From contig SAQE01000001.1 of NCBI GenBank assembly GCA_004020545.1, forward strand, positions 248,001 to 312,000: DNA of 64,000 bases. The letters run 5' to 3'. Under the pieces are notes generated by a model. It saw only the letters and a list, made by a program, of their open reading frames with translations. It did not search any database and was not told the DNA's origin. The position numbers and the translations under genes were made by a program. The stretch comes from Mesorhizobium sp. (GTDB lineage: Bacteria > Pseudomonadota > Alphaproteobacteria > Rhizobiales > Rhizobiaceae). This document shows positions 27,383-62,025 of this stretch, piece by piece (the first letter of the stretch is position 1; the number at the start of each line of letters is the position of its first letter).

Positions 27383-28528
27383 TCAGCCGGCGGCGGCCGG
27401 CGCGAAACTCTCCCGGAACAGGCGGTTGATGTCGGCGACGACCCGGCGCGGGTCCTGTCTGCCAGCAAGGACCTCGTTGAGACGATCGGACGCGGCCTGC
27501 TGGAACGCCATGTAGCCGTCATGGCGCGGGCGCACCCAGGCGCCCTCCAGCGTCGCCCGCGTGGCGCGATAGAAGTCGCCGGTCTCAGCGTTGACGGCTT
27601 CGTCCTCCCAGGCGGCGGCATGGCCCGGCTGGCCGCCGTTGGCGGCGTAGGGACCGCGCTGCACGTCGCCGCTGGCGATCCAGTAGGCGAAGTCGATCGC
27701 TTCCTCGGCAGCGGTGGAGAAGGCCGAAACGGCGATGCCGGTGCCGCCGAGGGCGGAACCGACCGGGCCGTTGCCGCCTACAGTCGGCATGTCGCTGAAG
27801 AAAAGCCGGTTCGGGCGGAACCCGGCAGCCGCGTAGGGCACGTAGCCATAGATCAGCGGCGCGCAGGCGATGCGCGAACCGGCCTCGGCCATCTTTTCGA
27901 ACACCGCGATCGGGTCCATCGTCAGGCATTCGGGGTCGACGAGCGCCGCCATCTCGCGCAGCATTTCGATGACGGTTTCACCGACCTCGGGATCGACCAG
28001 ATCGCCTGGGCCTTCGACGGCGCACGGCCGGCCGAGATCGGCGGCTAAAGTGAAGAAGCACATCAGCGAGTGCGGCGGCCTGAGCGGCAGGAGCACGCGG
28101 CCTTGCTGGGCGAGCTCCAGCACTTCGGTCCAGATCGTCGGCGCGGCCTCGATCAGATCGGGCCGCCAGGCCTGCACCTGGCTGGCAGCGTCGATCGGAA
28201 AGGCCCATTGCCGCCCTTGCCAGGTATAGCTTGGATAGGATCGGCCGACGCTTGCCTTTGCCAGCGCTTCGCGTTCCGCCTCGCGGCCCGGCACGTCGAG
28301 CGGCGCCAGGCATTTCTCGGCGGTGATCTGGCCGACATGCGGATGATCGATGACAATCAGGTCGTACGCGCGGGCGAGCTCTTCGACCGGGAAGGATTCG
28401 AAATCCTGCAGTGAGCGCTTCTCCCATTCGATCGAAACGCCGGTCTTTTCCTTCCACAGCCTGGAACAGGCGACCATCGGATCGTAGCCGCGCGGATGGT
28501 TCCAGGTCATGCCCTTGAGTGACGTCAA
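27383..28528 (-). CDS. Signal-peptide-less solute-binding-protein-like protein (paralogue A)
   Basis: A 381-residue protein with the fold of extracellular solute-binding proteins but no signal peptide: it starts directly with TSLKGMTWNH. It shares with the protein at 49707-50849 the blocks YDLIVIDHP, GRQWAFPIDAA, GGTGIAVSA and GGQPGHAAAW. The TTG start at 28528 overlaps the CaiB stop codon (TTGA), so the two are coupled. With no export signal it probably works in the cytosol, binding a ligand or acting as an enzyme or scaffold in the CoA pathway. Function is unknown. Confidence 0.8.
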   Translation of the reverse strand: MTSLKGMTWNHPRGYDPMVACSRLWKEKTGVSIEWEKRSLQDFESFPVEELARAYDLIVIDHPHVGQITAEKCLAPLDVPGREAEREALAKASVGRSYPSYTWQGRQWAFPIDAASQVQAWRPDLIEAAPTIWTEVLELAQQGRVLLPLRPPHSLMCFFTLAADLGRPCAVEGPGDLVDPEVGETVIEMLREMAALVDPECLTMDPIAVFEKMAEAGSRIACAPLIYGYVPYAAAGFRPNRLFFSDMPTVGGNGPVGSALGGTGIAVSAFSTAAEEAIDFAYWIASGDVQRGPYAANGGQPGHAAAWEDEAVNAETGDFYRATRATLEGAWVRPRHDGYMAFQQAASDRLNEVLAGRQDPRRVVADINRLFRESFAPAAAG

Positions 28529-29682
28529 AGGCCGAACTCCGTGCGGATCTTGGCGCTGTGCTCGCCGACGCGGGGCGCCGCCCGCTCGACCCTGGCGCGC
28601 ACGCCGTCGACCCTGAGCGGCGACCGGGTGGTGTGAATCGCAACGCCGTCCTCGCGCGTCACGGTCTGCAGCAGGTCGAGCGCCTTGAAGCCCTCGCTCT
28701 CCAGCATCTCCTGCCAGTTCAGCACCTTCGCGCACCAGATGTCGGCCGGCTCGAGGATCGCCAGCCATTCGTCGACCGGCTTCTGCGCGATGCGCTGGGC
28801 GATGATTGCCTTGATCTCGTCGCGCGCGGTGAACCAGGTCGACGGCTGGTCGCGGTAAGGCACCAGCGCCTCGATCTCGAGCAGGTCGGCCAGTTTCGGG
28901 ATCGGTGTCATGGCGATCGCCAGGAAACCGTCTTTCGCCGGGTAGACGCCGTAGGGCGCCGCCAGATAGGCATGGGCGCTGCGGAAGGACGAACGGCGCG
29001 GCAGCCGCCGTCCGTCGTTGAGATGTGTCGTCAGAACCTCGAACTGGAAGTCGATCAGCGCCTCGAACAGGCTGGTCTCGACATGGCCGCCTTGGCCGGT
29101 GATGCCGCGCCGGACAAGTGCTGCGAGGATGCCCTGCGCGCAGGCGGCACCTGCCAGCATGTCGGCGATCGCCAGACCGAACGGCACCGGACCCTGATCC
29201 TCGTCGCCGTTCAGCCACATCACGCCGGAGCGCGCCTGGGCGAGCAGATCCTGGCCGGGACGTTTCACCCAAGGGCCTTCCTCGCCATAGCCGCTGATCG
29301 AGGCATAGACCAGCCGCGGATTGAGCGTGCGCACATGCTCATAGTCGAGGCCGAGCCGCTCGATGACGCCTGGCCGGAAATTCTGGATCAGCACATCCGC
29401 TTTGCCGAGCAGGCCGCGGAGCGTGGCAAGGTCCGCTTCGTTCTTCAGGTCGAGGGCAAAGCTCTCCTTGGCGCGGTTGATGGCGTGGAAGATGGTGGAA
29501 TCGCCGCCGATCTCGGTGTCGCTGAGATAGAGCCTGCGGGACAGGTCGCCGCCATCGGGCCGCTCGATCTTGATGACGCGCGCGCCGAGGTCGAGCAGTC
29601 TCAGCGAGCAGTAAGGTCCCGACAGGAACTGGCTCATGTCGACGACGACAAGGCCGGACAGCGGCAGGTCGGCGGCCATCAT
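28525..29682 (-). CDS. CaiB/BaiF CoA-transferase family protein (A)
   Basis: A 385-residue family III CoA-transferase. The catalytic aspartate is Asp145 in KRPGQDLL and the LGARVIKIERP and NFRPGVIERLG blocks are intact. Such enzymes move CoA between carboxylic acids. The ATG at 29682 overlaps the stop of the MaoC gene upstream (TGATG) and its own stop overlaps the SBP-like gene's start, so three genes form one coupled operon. Its homologue is at 57241-58446. Confidence 0.92.
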   Translation of the reverse strand: MMAADLPLSGLVVVDMSQFLSGPYCSLRLLDLGARVIKIERPDGGDLSRRLYLSDTEIGGDSTIFHAINRAKESFALDLKNEADLATLRGLLGKADVLIQNFRPGVIERLGLDYEHVRTLNPRLVYASISGYGEEGPWVKRPGQDLLAQARSGVMWLNGDEDQGPVPFGLAIADMLAGAACAQGILAALVRRGITGQGGHVETSLFEALIDFQFEVLTTHLNDGRRLPRRSSFRSAHAYLAAPYGVYPAKDGFLAIAMTPIPKLADLLEIEALVPYRDQPSTWFTARDEIKAIIAQRIAQKPVDEWLAILEPADIWCAKVLNWQEMLESEGFKALDLLQTVTREDGVAIHTTRSPLRVDGVRARVERAAPRVGEHSAKIRTEFGL

Positions 29683-60241: not shown

Positions 60242-62025
60242 CAGATCGCAGGTCAGTCTCCCTGGTCAAGCCGAACCGGCCTCAATTCACCGATATCGAG
60301 GGGCTGGCGGCGATGGTCCGCCATGGTGACGCTTTCGGCGTCGGCGGCCATCATTTCGCTCGGCTGCCGGTCGCATTGCTGCGCGCGATCGCCGGGTCCG
60401 GCATCAAGGACCTGCGCTACGTCTCCTGGGCCGGCGGGTTGCCGCTCGAGCTGCTGCTGGAAGTGGAGGCGGTGGCGGAAATCGACCTCTGCTTTTCCAG
60501 CCTCGACATTTTCGGGTTGCCGCCGAAATTCCGCGCGGTCGCCGAGAGCGGTGCAATCCCCGTCCGCGACTGGACGGCGCTGTGCATGATCCAGGCATTG
60601 CGGGCGACACAGCAGAACCTGCCGTCGATGCCATTCCAGCTTCCTCAAGGGTCCGACATGCTGGCGCGCGTGCCGGGTGCGATCGCGAGGCCCGATCCGG
60701 TTGCCGGGACCGAGACCGGATTTGTCCCGCCGCTCAGGCTCGATACTTTCGTCGTCCACGCCCAGCGCGCCGACGAAAGCGGCAATGTTGAGATCATCGG
60801 GCCGCGGGCGCTGGACTTCGCCATGGCGGGCGCGGCTCGGCAAGTGCTGGTCACGGTCGAGGAGATCGTACCGGTCGGGGCGCTTCGGCATGACGGCCGC
60901 CAGAGCATTCTCACCCGCAATCAGGTTTCGGCCATAGCCCTGGCACCGGGCGGCGCTTATCCGGCCTCGTGCCTGCCGTTCTACGTAACGGACTACGAGC
61001 CATTGTCGGAGGCATTCGCGGCCAGGGAGGCTCCCTTGTCGGGCAAGCTCCGCCTGCCTTCGGGCGGCCTGCCGGAGCGGCTTCAAGAGGCGGCGAAAGT
61101 CAGCGCCGGGACGGTGCTCGCAATGCCGGCGCTCGCGCATGGCGACAGACAAGCATCCGTCGACGAGATCATCGCCACGCGGATCGCCGCCGAGCTCGAC
61201 AATGAGAGCTTTGCCAGCGCAGGCGCGGTATCGCCGCTCGCCAACGTCGCCTACCGGCTGGCCAAGGCGACGCACGCGCCGGACATGATCATCGCGACGA
61301 TGAGTTGCGGCCATCTCGACATCGCGCCGAGCCCGATGGTGCTCTCGCTGATCGAAAGCCTGGATTGCGAGACGTCGGTGGCGCATGCCGGCGGCGACGA
61401 TACCTATTCGACCTATTACCAGGCCGGCGCGGTGACGCATGAGATCGTCGGCGCTGCTCAAGTCGACCGGCGCGGACGCGTCAACACGATTGCGCTCAGC
61501 AAACCGAGCGGTGGCCTGCTGCGGCTGCCCGGGCAGGGCGGCATGGCCGACGTCGCCAACATGCACCGCGACTACCTGCTCTACGTTCCCCGTCACTCGG
61601 TCCAGTCGCTGGTGGACGAGGTCGAGATCGCGAGTTCGGCCCGCGGGCTGCTGACGCCGGATGAGCGGGAGCCGATGGGCTATCACACCGGCAAGGCGCT
61701 GGTCTTCACCGATCTCTGCGTCTTCCGGCTCGATCGGGCGTCGAGGGAATTGACCGTCATCGAAACCATGCCGGGCGTTACCCGCCAGCAGATCCGCGAT
61801 GCCACCGGCTTTGCCGTGACATTCGATGCCGGTTGCAGAGAGATGCCGGTGCCGTCCGACGATACGCTCGCTGCCTTGAGAAGCCGCGTCGATCCGCTCG
61901 GTTTGCGGCGTCTCGAATTCGTCAGCGCGAAGGAGCGTGGCGCGCTCATCGCCGAAATCCTCGCCGCCGACCGCGCCATGGTCGAGCGCTTAATCGCCGC
62001 GCAGCGATCGCCTGTCGCGAACTGA
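60238..62025 (+). CDS. Fused alpha/beta CoA-transferase-like protein (GctAB/IpdAB type)
   Basis: A 595-residue protein with two CoA-transferase-superfamily halves. The first carries the GGHHFARLPVALLRAI and GSDMLAR region; the second starts around residue 310 and includes NVAYRLAKATHAPD and GGLLRLPGQGG. In classical family I enzymes the beta half has a nucleophilic Glu in an E(N/S)G motif; here the aligned stretch reads ATMSCGHLD without Glu, so it may be a hydrolase or have other chemistry, as IpdAB does. GTG start at 60238 inside the epimerase stop. Confidence 0.8.
   Translation: MTDRRSVSLVKPNRPQFTDIEGLAAMVRHGDAFGVGGHHFARLPVALLRAIAGSGIKDLRYVSWAGGLPLELLLEVEAVAEIDLCFSSLDIFGLPPKFRAVAESGAIPVRDWTALCMIQALRATQQNLPSMPFQLPQGSDMLARVPGAIARPDPVAGTETGFVPPLRLDTFVVHAQRADESGNVEIIGPRALDFAMAGAARQVLVTVEEIVPVGALRHDGRQSILTRNQVSAIALAPGGAYPASCLPFYVTDYEPLSEAFAAREAPLSGKLRLPSGGLPERLQEAAKVSAGTVLAMPALAHGDRQASVDEIIATRIAAELDNESFASAGAVSPLANVAYRLAKATHAPDMIIATMSCGHLDIAPSPMVLSLIESLDCETSVAHAGGDDTYSTYYQAGAVTHEIVGAAQVDRRGRVNTIALSKPSGGLLRLPGQGGMADVANMHRDYLLYVPRHSVQSLVDEVEIASSARGLLTPDEREPMGYHTGKALVFTDLCVFRLDRASRELTVIETMPGVTRQQIRDATGFAVTFDAGCREMPVPSDDTLAALRSRVDPLGLRRLEFVSAKERGALIAEILAADRAMVERLIAAQRSPVAN

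Follow-up and report, generated by a model that had tools for sequence, protein, structure and literature searches.

We analyzed a 64,000-nucleotide stretch of the genome of Mesorhizobium sp. (GenBank assembly GCA_004020545.1, contig SAQE01000001.1, positions 248,001 to 312,000; hereafter the window), in which two sugar-related gene clusters each encode a solute-binding-fold protein without a signal peptide (hereafter SBPc), a family III coenzyme A (CoA) transferase of the CaiB family, and a protein with a hydratase fold. In cluster 1, these genes lie on the minus strand and encode SBPc_1 (27383-28528; 381 aa; SBP_bac_8, 47 bits), CaiB_1 (28525-29682; CoA_transf_3, 345.6 bits), and the MaoC-fold protein MaoC_1 (29682-30233; MaoC_dehydratas, 44 bits), which keeps the catalytic Asp and has Val at the position of the catalytic His. 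SBPc_1 begins with a TTG codon that shares 4 nt with the CaiB_1 stop. In cluster 2, on the plus strand, SBPc_2 (49707-50849; 380 aa; SBP_bac_1, 38.8 bits, with SBP_bac_8 also over its cut-off) is followed by an IclR regulator (50849-51700), a CUT2-type importer identified from translations (51728-56433; RbsB from 51728, RbsC from 52869, RbsA from 53842, and a second RbsC from 55402), and an SDR dehydrogenase (56423-57220; 257 bits against the glucose-1-dehydrogenase subfamily model, cut-off 215 bits). CaiB_2 (57241-58446; CoA_transf_3, 349.2 bits) and ECH_2 (58449-59231; ECH_1, 184 bits), a crotonase-type enoyl-CoA hydratase with both catalytic Glu residues, complete this order. Both gene orders were proposed in the original prediction, made from the sequence of the window, and all of the genes concerned are present, with Pfam support for most of the families.

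The two SBPc sequences align over nearly their full length with 39% aa identity (E 2.3e-65), and the GRQWAxPIDAA and GGQPG blocks that had been singled out as shared occupy aligned columns. The genome contains two SBPc genes only; a third match was weak (E 5e-4). Based on Pfam, structure modeling, and fold comparison, SBPc has the type II periplasmic-binding fold and belongs to the SBP_bac families. An AlphaFold model of SBPc_1 built from 14 sequences had a mean pLDDT of 92.9, and the solved folds closest to it were sugar-binding proteins, the best being SmoF (7ofy; TM 0.82). Because the first strand of the model spans residues 3-9, it leaves no room for a leader. At E ≤ 1e-30, the order yielded SBPc in 41 of 297 genomes and the class in six of 385, this genome included; at E ≤ 1e-3, named genomes held at least 570 relatives. 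Annotated records label members of the family as extracellular or ABC-transporter substrate-binding proteins.

For comparisons across the family, we used 134 places encoding SBPc: a selected diverse set of 52, 80 loci from named genomes, and two S. meliloti records, the latter 82 being close to SBPc_1. The diverse set comprised the two places in the window, 35 of the 52 non-window places in the order, five from the class, and 10 plasmid loci; the other 17 places from the scan of the order, mostly close relatives, were left out. Several of the plasmid loci already carried a CoA-transferase or dehydratase label, which amounts to a mild bias. Phyla other than that of the window were covered via plasmid records, with four such loci (L122, L123, L203, and L204).

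At all 134 places, we scored each candidate start codon of the open frame for a Sec-like N-terminus, over a range reaching 40 codons upstream and 12 codons downstream of the match. Under the strict threshold, none of the 134 SBPc places qualified, compared with 68 of 78 importer binding proteins (SBPabc), 12 of 15 RbsB proteins, and five of six TRAP binding proteins scored with the same script at the same loci. The strict criterion misses some real-looking importer leaders, that of the window's own SBPabc among them; with a looser limit (above 1.4), the counts were 1/134 for SBPc (locus L168), 74/78 for SBPabc, 12/15 for RbsB, and 5/6 for the TRAP proteins. The absence of a signal peptide from both window proteins, as originally predicted, was thus borne out, and the signal peptides or lipoprotein sites that the original prediction had named as weakening the link did not appear under the strict threshold. 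A misread start codon hiding a signal peptide was also considered and rejected, given that no alternative start qualified at any of the 134 places in the strict test. Because SBPc has neither a recognizable export signal nor a lipoprotein N-terminus, we did not class it as an importer subunit.

When SBPc and CUT1 importer proteins were placed in one tree, the 21 SBPc rows fell on one side of a branch supported at 100/100 and are thus monophyletic; the CUT1 rows had been assigned as periplasmic beforehand, with two of 10 passing the strict leader test and several others showing leaders by eye. Across 58 nonredundant SBPc sequences, W9, R13, D56, D61, P63, D113, the Gly pair at 261-262, G299-Q300, W307, and R333 are invariant (58/58). 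Profile alignment to the trehalose/maltose-binding protein 1eu8 (TMBP) placed D61 on an Asp and R333 on an Arg; in the same alignment, the Trp of the LGGW block is Thr or Ala in SBPc, and the Asp aligned two residues past D113 is Ala. We take the aligned 1eu8 positions to be ligand contacts, for which titles of mutant structures give some support. On these alignments, the SBPc pocket seems to have been kept but retuned relative to the importer proteins.

CaiB lay within 10 kb of SBPc in 40 of the 52 diverse places, and four of the other 12 have a CaiB 10-12 kb away (L145, L148, L157, and L169). The chance expectation was approximately 0.02 CaiB genes within 10 kb on either side, based on 121 matches in 103 Mb from 22 of these genomes. 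In the 134-place set, CaiB was within 10 kb in 122 places and adjacent in 105, and among the 29 short loci L004-L032 it was within 1.5 kb in 24. Of 109 resolved cases, 90 have CaiB directly upstream of SBPc, and 93 have a possible SBPc start that shares 1 or 4 nt with the stop of the upstream gene. The module of SBPc, CaiB, and hydratase therefore co-occurs far beyond chance and across phyla. The wide occurrence of SBPc apart from CaiB that would have weakened the link was not seen; eight places had no linked CaiB. The proposed association thus held for CaiB and for the hydratase (41/52), but not as a constant for IclR, which was found in 31 of 52 places, with LacI or GntR in others. Chance adjacency in two paralogous islands was rejected as an explanation, since the module is conserved across phyla. 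In loci L106 and L113, from two species of the genus Brucella, the CaiB match next to the SBPc match was very short or fragmented.

Both window CaiB proteins far exceed the CoA_transf_3 cut-off of 23.3 bits. The column aligned with the Asp of solved family III CoA-transferases, which we take to be the catalytic residue, is invariant (121/121). Assignment to a known CaiB equivalog (formyl-CoA, glutarate, mesaconate, oxalate, or carnitine) was rejected, as the best scores were 219 and 244 bits against an NCBIfam cut-off of 750 bits. In a CaiB tree of 42 SBPc-linked and 27 unlinked rows, two label changes were counted versus 21.5 in shuffles; the linked CaiBs group apart from the unlinked ones, showing linked inheritance. 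The linked rows were 38 of 46 nonredundant sequences, the window's two, and two second CaiBs; the unlinked rows were 27 of the 30 best-scoring matches, with L179, L192, and L193 omitted (contig edge, double or partial gene). One unlinked row on a long branch, L191, stood beside linked rows, and the CaiB nearest to SBPc in L131 fell within the MaoC-type clade although a crotonase gene lies nearby. The genome has six CaiB-family genes in 7.0 Mb. A third on the same contig (331184-332197), approximately 19 kb past the window, has no SBPc match beside it.

The hydratase near SBPc was a crotonase in 22 of the 52 places and MaoC or MaoC_b in 19; no place had both, and 11 had neither. The crotonase and MaoC proteins thus replace each other in the module (P 7e-7 for exclusivity, a value that ignores relatedness). 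MaoC_b is a second MaoC hydratase with an intact Asp/His motif, encoded in the cluster 1 importer operon (18178-18630, minus strand; Pfam, 82.7 bits) and absent from the original prediction. All 22 crotonases near SBPc keep both catalytic Glu residues, and all 66 MaoC_b family members near SBPc retain its Asp and His (D..HH). The 64 relatives of MaoC_1 near SBPc all have the Asp, and all 64 carry Val in place of the His; MaoC_1 also keeps an invariant D-x-H-P-Y-V block. With Asp and His as the catalytic motif of MaoC hydratases, MaoC_1 by itself lacks the (R)-hydratase motif because Val replaces His, and the pairing of an intact MaoC_b with a His-less MaoC_1 makes a heteromer with one working site plausible. 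Since two unrelated, intact hydratase folds occupy the same slot, we argue that the slot is for the hydration or dehydration of a CoA ester. In 17 of the 22 crotonase-type places, no dehydratase of the MR or UxuA type was found within 10 kb, and an IlvD/EDD gene lay inside one of the 18 crotonase-type stretches searched (L144); the other four (L123, L126, L129, and L131) rest on incomplete gene tables. Crotonase-type places are therefore mostly without a standard sugar-acid dehydratase.

The module also occurs in distant lineages, with varied gene orders. In Rufibacter (Bacteroidota), the order is SBPc, CaiB, CaiB, SBPx, Gfo, and MaoC; in Persicobacter, it is RhaT, SBPc, CaiB, CaiB, SBPx, Gfo, ADH, SDR, MaoC, IclR, lactonase, alpha-L-fucosidase, and sulfatase; and in Streptomyces, it is epimerase, SDR, CaiB, SBPc, crotonase, and FAH. 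Croceibacterium, an alphaproteobacterium of another order, has an alpha-L-fucosidase, CaiB/MaoC and SBPc/CaiB pairs, and SBPx by Gfo. The haloarchaeon Halostagnicola has CaiB, an AMP-binding ligase, SBPx, MaoC, Gfo, RhaM, an amidohydrolase, and an alpha-L-fucosidase. A plasmid of Jannaschia (L131:12001-24993) encodes SBPc with a TRAP importer, CaiB, a crotonase, a BKACE protein, and a cupin, and this cluster possibly serves a different substrate.

SBPx is a second leaderless CUT1-type binding protein (L122:15670-16797, L125:5429-6616, L203:11989-13221, and L204:12001-13236), found in CaiB/Gfo/MaoC clusters of Bacteroidota, an alphaproteobacterium, and a haloarchaeon; no leader was seen at any of these four N-termini. 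SBPx fell outside the SBPc clade, on the importer side of the tree, where the inner branches are only partly supported, and it scored 71-97 bits against importer proteins versus 21 bits or less against SBPc. Provided that the ancestors on the importer side carried an export signal, SBPx lost its own separately from SBPc. Two such recruitments of a signal-less sugar-binding protein next to CaiB argue more strongly than any other observation that SBPc and SBPx are functionally paired with CaiB.

The remaining genes of cluster 1 are on the minus strand, except where noted. The L-fuconate dehydratase family gene FucD (16136-17419, with the frame open upstream as far as 17575) aligned to L-fuconate dehydratase 1yey with E 6e-170 and to 4ip4 with E 1e-224; it was not singled out in the original prediction. 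Next, in coordinate order, are genes for an SDR dehydrogenase (17427-18158), MaoC_b, a Gfo/Idh/MocA oxidoreductase (18639-19727), the L-rhamnose-mutarotase-like RhaM (match extent 19707-20034; 182 bits by phmmer to annotated L-rhamnose mutarotases), and an enolase-superfamily (MR) enzyme (20036-21157) whose closest solved relative by sequence is 3,6-anhydro-L-galactonate cycloisomerase. A CUT1 sugar importer, read from translations and named by similarity, spans 21160-25512 and comprises MalK (21160-22257), a MalG-like protein (22262-22861, plus a piece in another frame at 22878-23127), MalF (23130-24188), and the periplasmic SBPabc (24133-25512), the leader peptide of which was read by eye. 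The MalG matches (22264-22861 and 22878-23127) are thus split across two frames, which reflects either a broken gene or a sequencing error; in its relative L035, the gene is in a single frame. On the plus strand are an IclR regulator read from its translation and conserved in relatives (25606-26391) and, based on Pfam, a fuconolactonase-like lactonase of the Amidohydrolase_2 family (26513-27349), which scored 88 bits against the L-fucono-1,5-lactonase model NF052480, below the model cut-off of 400.

Downstream of ECH_2, on the plus strand, cluster 2 encodes an aldose-1-epimerase-like protein (59228-60241), named from its similarity to annotated aldose 1-epimerase family proteins and with no Pfam match at E 1e-3; a family I CoA-transferase (60238-62025; 595 aa; CoA_trans, PF01144, 84 bits in two stretches); and an SMP-30/gluconolactonase-like lactonase (62036-62872; SGL, 59.6 bits). 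The family I CoA-transferase, which the original prediction did not include, recurs in the related clusters L141, L150, L151, and L162. Upstream of SBPc_2 are a UxuA-type mannonate dehydratase on the plus strand (48363-49595; 548 bits against a curated cut-off of 191) and a divergent neighboring operon on the minus strand (44869-48376) for an RraA-like aldolase (from 44869), a UxuA-like protein (45570), an SDR dehydrogenase (46690), and a GntR regulator read from its translation (47489). The region 44869-49595 as a whole resembles a hexuronate operon adjoining cluster 2, and it is kept in L162 and L163. Each family expected in both islands was therefore found: beside the IclR regulators and importers, there are mutarotase-type genes (RhaM and the epimerase-like gene), lactonase-type genes (the amidohydrolase and SMP-30), and genes of sugar-acid dehydratase families (FucD and the MR enolase in cluster 1; UxuA at 48363 and 45570 in cluster 2). 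Elsewhere in the window, polysaccharide-type genes (a polymerase-like membrane protein, a cellulase-like protein, and a WecG-like transferase, read from some of the translations) lie between the two islands at approximately 31568-44513, and translations of approximately 6139-16057 resemble an ectoine-type degradation cluster with a MocR regulator, an amino-acid importer, hydrolases, a dehydratase, and a cyclodeaminase-like protein.

The substrates of cluster 1 are likely L-fucose-derived acids, because it encodes FucD, a fuconolactonase-like amidohydrolase, RhaM, and an SDR dehydrogenase, because FAH is present in the genome, and because alpha-L-fucosidase adjoins the module in three distant lineages (Croceibacterium, Persicobacter, and Halostagnicola). 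The FAH homologue lies elsewhere in the genome and is 77% identical; loss of FAH was therefore rejected as the reason for a CoA bypass. On S. meliloti pSymB, the module is near an L-fucose-type cluster, and the record shows the same set of genes, with RhaM, Gfo, a dehydratase-labeled gene, SDR, FAH, and L-fuconate dehydratase. This S. meliloti importer has reportedly been assigned to L-fucose; a literature search for SMb21103 gave nothing.

Cluster 1 resembles the L-fucose oxidative pathway (FucD, fuconolactonase, SDR, and FAH) in its FucD, SDR, and lactonase-like genes, but adds CaiB, MaoC, MaoC_b, and SBPc, none of which, to our knowledge, takes part in that pathway. SBPc likewise resembles the CUT1 binding proteins SmoF, LpqY, and TMBP in whole fold (TM ~0.8), in Pfam families, and in the residues aligned with TMBP; it differs in its missing export signal, in the replaced LGGW Trp, in its link to CaiB, and in not being the importer's own binding protein. 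In the E. coli cai operon, CaiB shuttles CoA between products and substrates, which allows the crotonase CaiD to act on carnitine (PMC2131755). Shared with this hydroxy-acid operon is the combination of a family III CoA-transferase and a crotonase, both with catalytic residues; in cluster 2, the crotonase has both Glu residues. The window genes differ in that they lie in sugar clusters, the hydratase may be a MaoC protein (as in cluster 1), a cytosolic SBP is added, a CaiC-like ligase is mostly not seen in the module, and the CaiB proteins score below every matched NCBIfam equivalog cut-off. The premise of the original prediction that the known routes of sugar oxidation do without CoA proved too strong: in Price et al. 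2019 (PMC6365646), deoxyribonate oxidation is proposed to proceed via glyceryl-CoA or deoxyribonyl-CoA, and a sugar acid is thus handled as CoA esters. The route proposed there uses a CoA synthetase or BKACE, and the term substrate-binding is absent from the text of that paper. Among titles and abstract openings in the open-access literature, the scope of our search, none described the module. On the reading preferred below, it would be a form of CoA-cycling dehydration with one part, the cytosolic binding protein, for which we found no described counterpart.

A CoA-thioester step in sugar-acid catabolism, raised in the original prediction as something that may be encoded, is likely, because CaiB and the hydratases keep their catalytic residues. 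Our preferred reading, which we hold tentatively and at somewhat short of even probability, is that CoA cycling lets CaiB and the hydratase dehydrate sugar acids, with SBPc as a cytosolic ligand-binding partner. A mutarotase, a dehydrogenase, and a lactonase would yield a sugar acid, onto which CaiB would transfer CoA. The hydratase would remove water from the activated acid; this would be the crotonase in cluster 2 and, in cluster 1, MaoC_b, probably paired with the His-less MaoC_1. CaiB would then recycle CoA by taking it off the dehydrated product and loading it onto a further substrate, and FAH, RraA, or other enzymes would take the keto-deoxy acid. The family I CoA-transferase of cluster 2 may prime the cycle in place of a ligase. 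SBPc may bind the sugar acid, its thioester, or the product, working alongside CaiB to present the substrate or to protect the thioester; free hydroxyls could turn a sugar-acyl thioester into a lactone, and a protein keeping the acid or its ester bound close to CaiB would then be of use.

Several points weigh against this proposal. Lactonization of aldonyl thioesters should be easy. A priming, CaiC-like CoA ligase was found inside the module in Halostagnicola only, and with that ligase as the sole query, the only other matches were in L130 and L142 (102-111 bits). Dehydratases of the MR or UxuA type occur in 15 of the 19 MaoC-type places, so a CoA dehydratase looks redundant there and the argument from the dehydratase gap is weakened. 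The link of SBPc to CaiB is not absolute, as shown by the eight of 52 places without a linked CaiB: L149, L166, and L171 lie at a contig end or close to one and L167 is on a 14.6-kb contig, but L124, L159, L160, and L168 are not near contig ends. SBPc and CaiB distances correlate (r 0.79 for 46 pairs; permutation maximum 0.31), which favors the proposal, but this does not separate co-function from shared ancestry, which contributes. A scan of the loci for a CaiB-SBPc fusion gave none; the single frame with two listed families joined IclR to a lactonase (L113).

One alternative, which we consider unlikely, is that a sugar-acyl-CoA made by CaiB is degraded as in beta-oxidation, the hydratase and a Gfo/Idh, SDR, or ADH dehydrogenase giving a 3-keto-acyl-CoA that is cleaved elsewhere, so that CoA is consumed. 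Dehydrogenases (Gfo, SDR, or MDR) near 50 of the 52 places, Gfo and MaoC_b neighbors in many loci, and the BKACE gene of Jannaschia fit this route, as does the conversion of deoxyribonyl-CoA via a 3-keto intermediate to glyceryl-CoA proposed for Klebsiella (PMC6365646). The dehydrogenases are needed anyway for lactone formation, however, and among 12 annotated loci (with incomplete PLSDB tables) the sole thiolase was in a seemingly separate aromatic-type operon (L130). To a similarly low degree of probability, SBPc may itself be an enzyme on a binding-protein scaffold that acts on the sugar acid or thioester. Cyclohexadienyl dehydratase is an example of an enzyme that evolved from a solute-binding protein. 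Enzymes of such origin are known (PMC7683729). The invariance of W9, R13, D56, D61, D113, W307, and R333 and the pocket positions that differ from transporters would suit catalysis, but invariance equally fits binding, no known catalytic motif was recognized in SBPc, and the closest folds are ordinary sugar-binding proteins.

Less probable again, SBPc may not be a partner of CaiB but may sense or buffer the sugar acid in the cytosol and so regulate uptake or transcription. The places without a linked CaiB, such as the one beside UxuA in Microvirga, are consistent with such a role; the type of regulator varies among loci, however, while CaiB and the hydratase persist. Export of SBPc by an unrecognized route, to serve as an ordinary importer subunit, is very improbable. 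Its Pfam and fold matches to importer proteins are what this explanation has in its favor, set against the Sec-like counts for SBPc and its neighboring binding proteins, SBPc starts that overlap upstream cytosolic genes, and the importers of both window clusters, each of which has a binding protein of its own.

A broader proposal also takes in SBPx, and we regard it as possible but doubtful: sugar-binding proteins would have lost their export signals at least twice, in SBPc and in SBPx, and become dedicated cytosolic CoA-transferase subunits, forming a new, binding-protein-dependent class that carries out CoA-thioester dehydration of sugar acids (L-fuconate and others) in Alphaproteobacteria, Bacteroidota, Actinomycetota, and haloarchaea. 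If true, this would add a CoA-thioester branch to sugar-acid catabolism and give a role to orphan CaiB clades. It would also mean that a periplasmic receptor had been turned more than once into a cytosolic partner in metabolism, and SBPc would be a source of misannotation in transporter counts.

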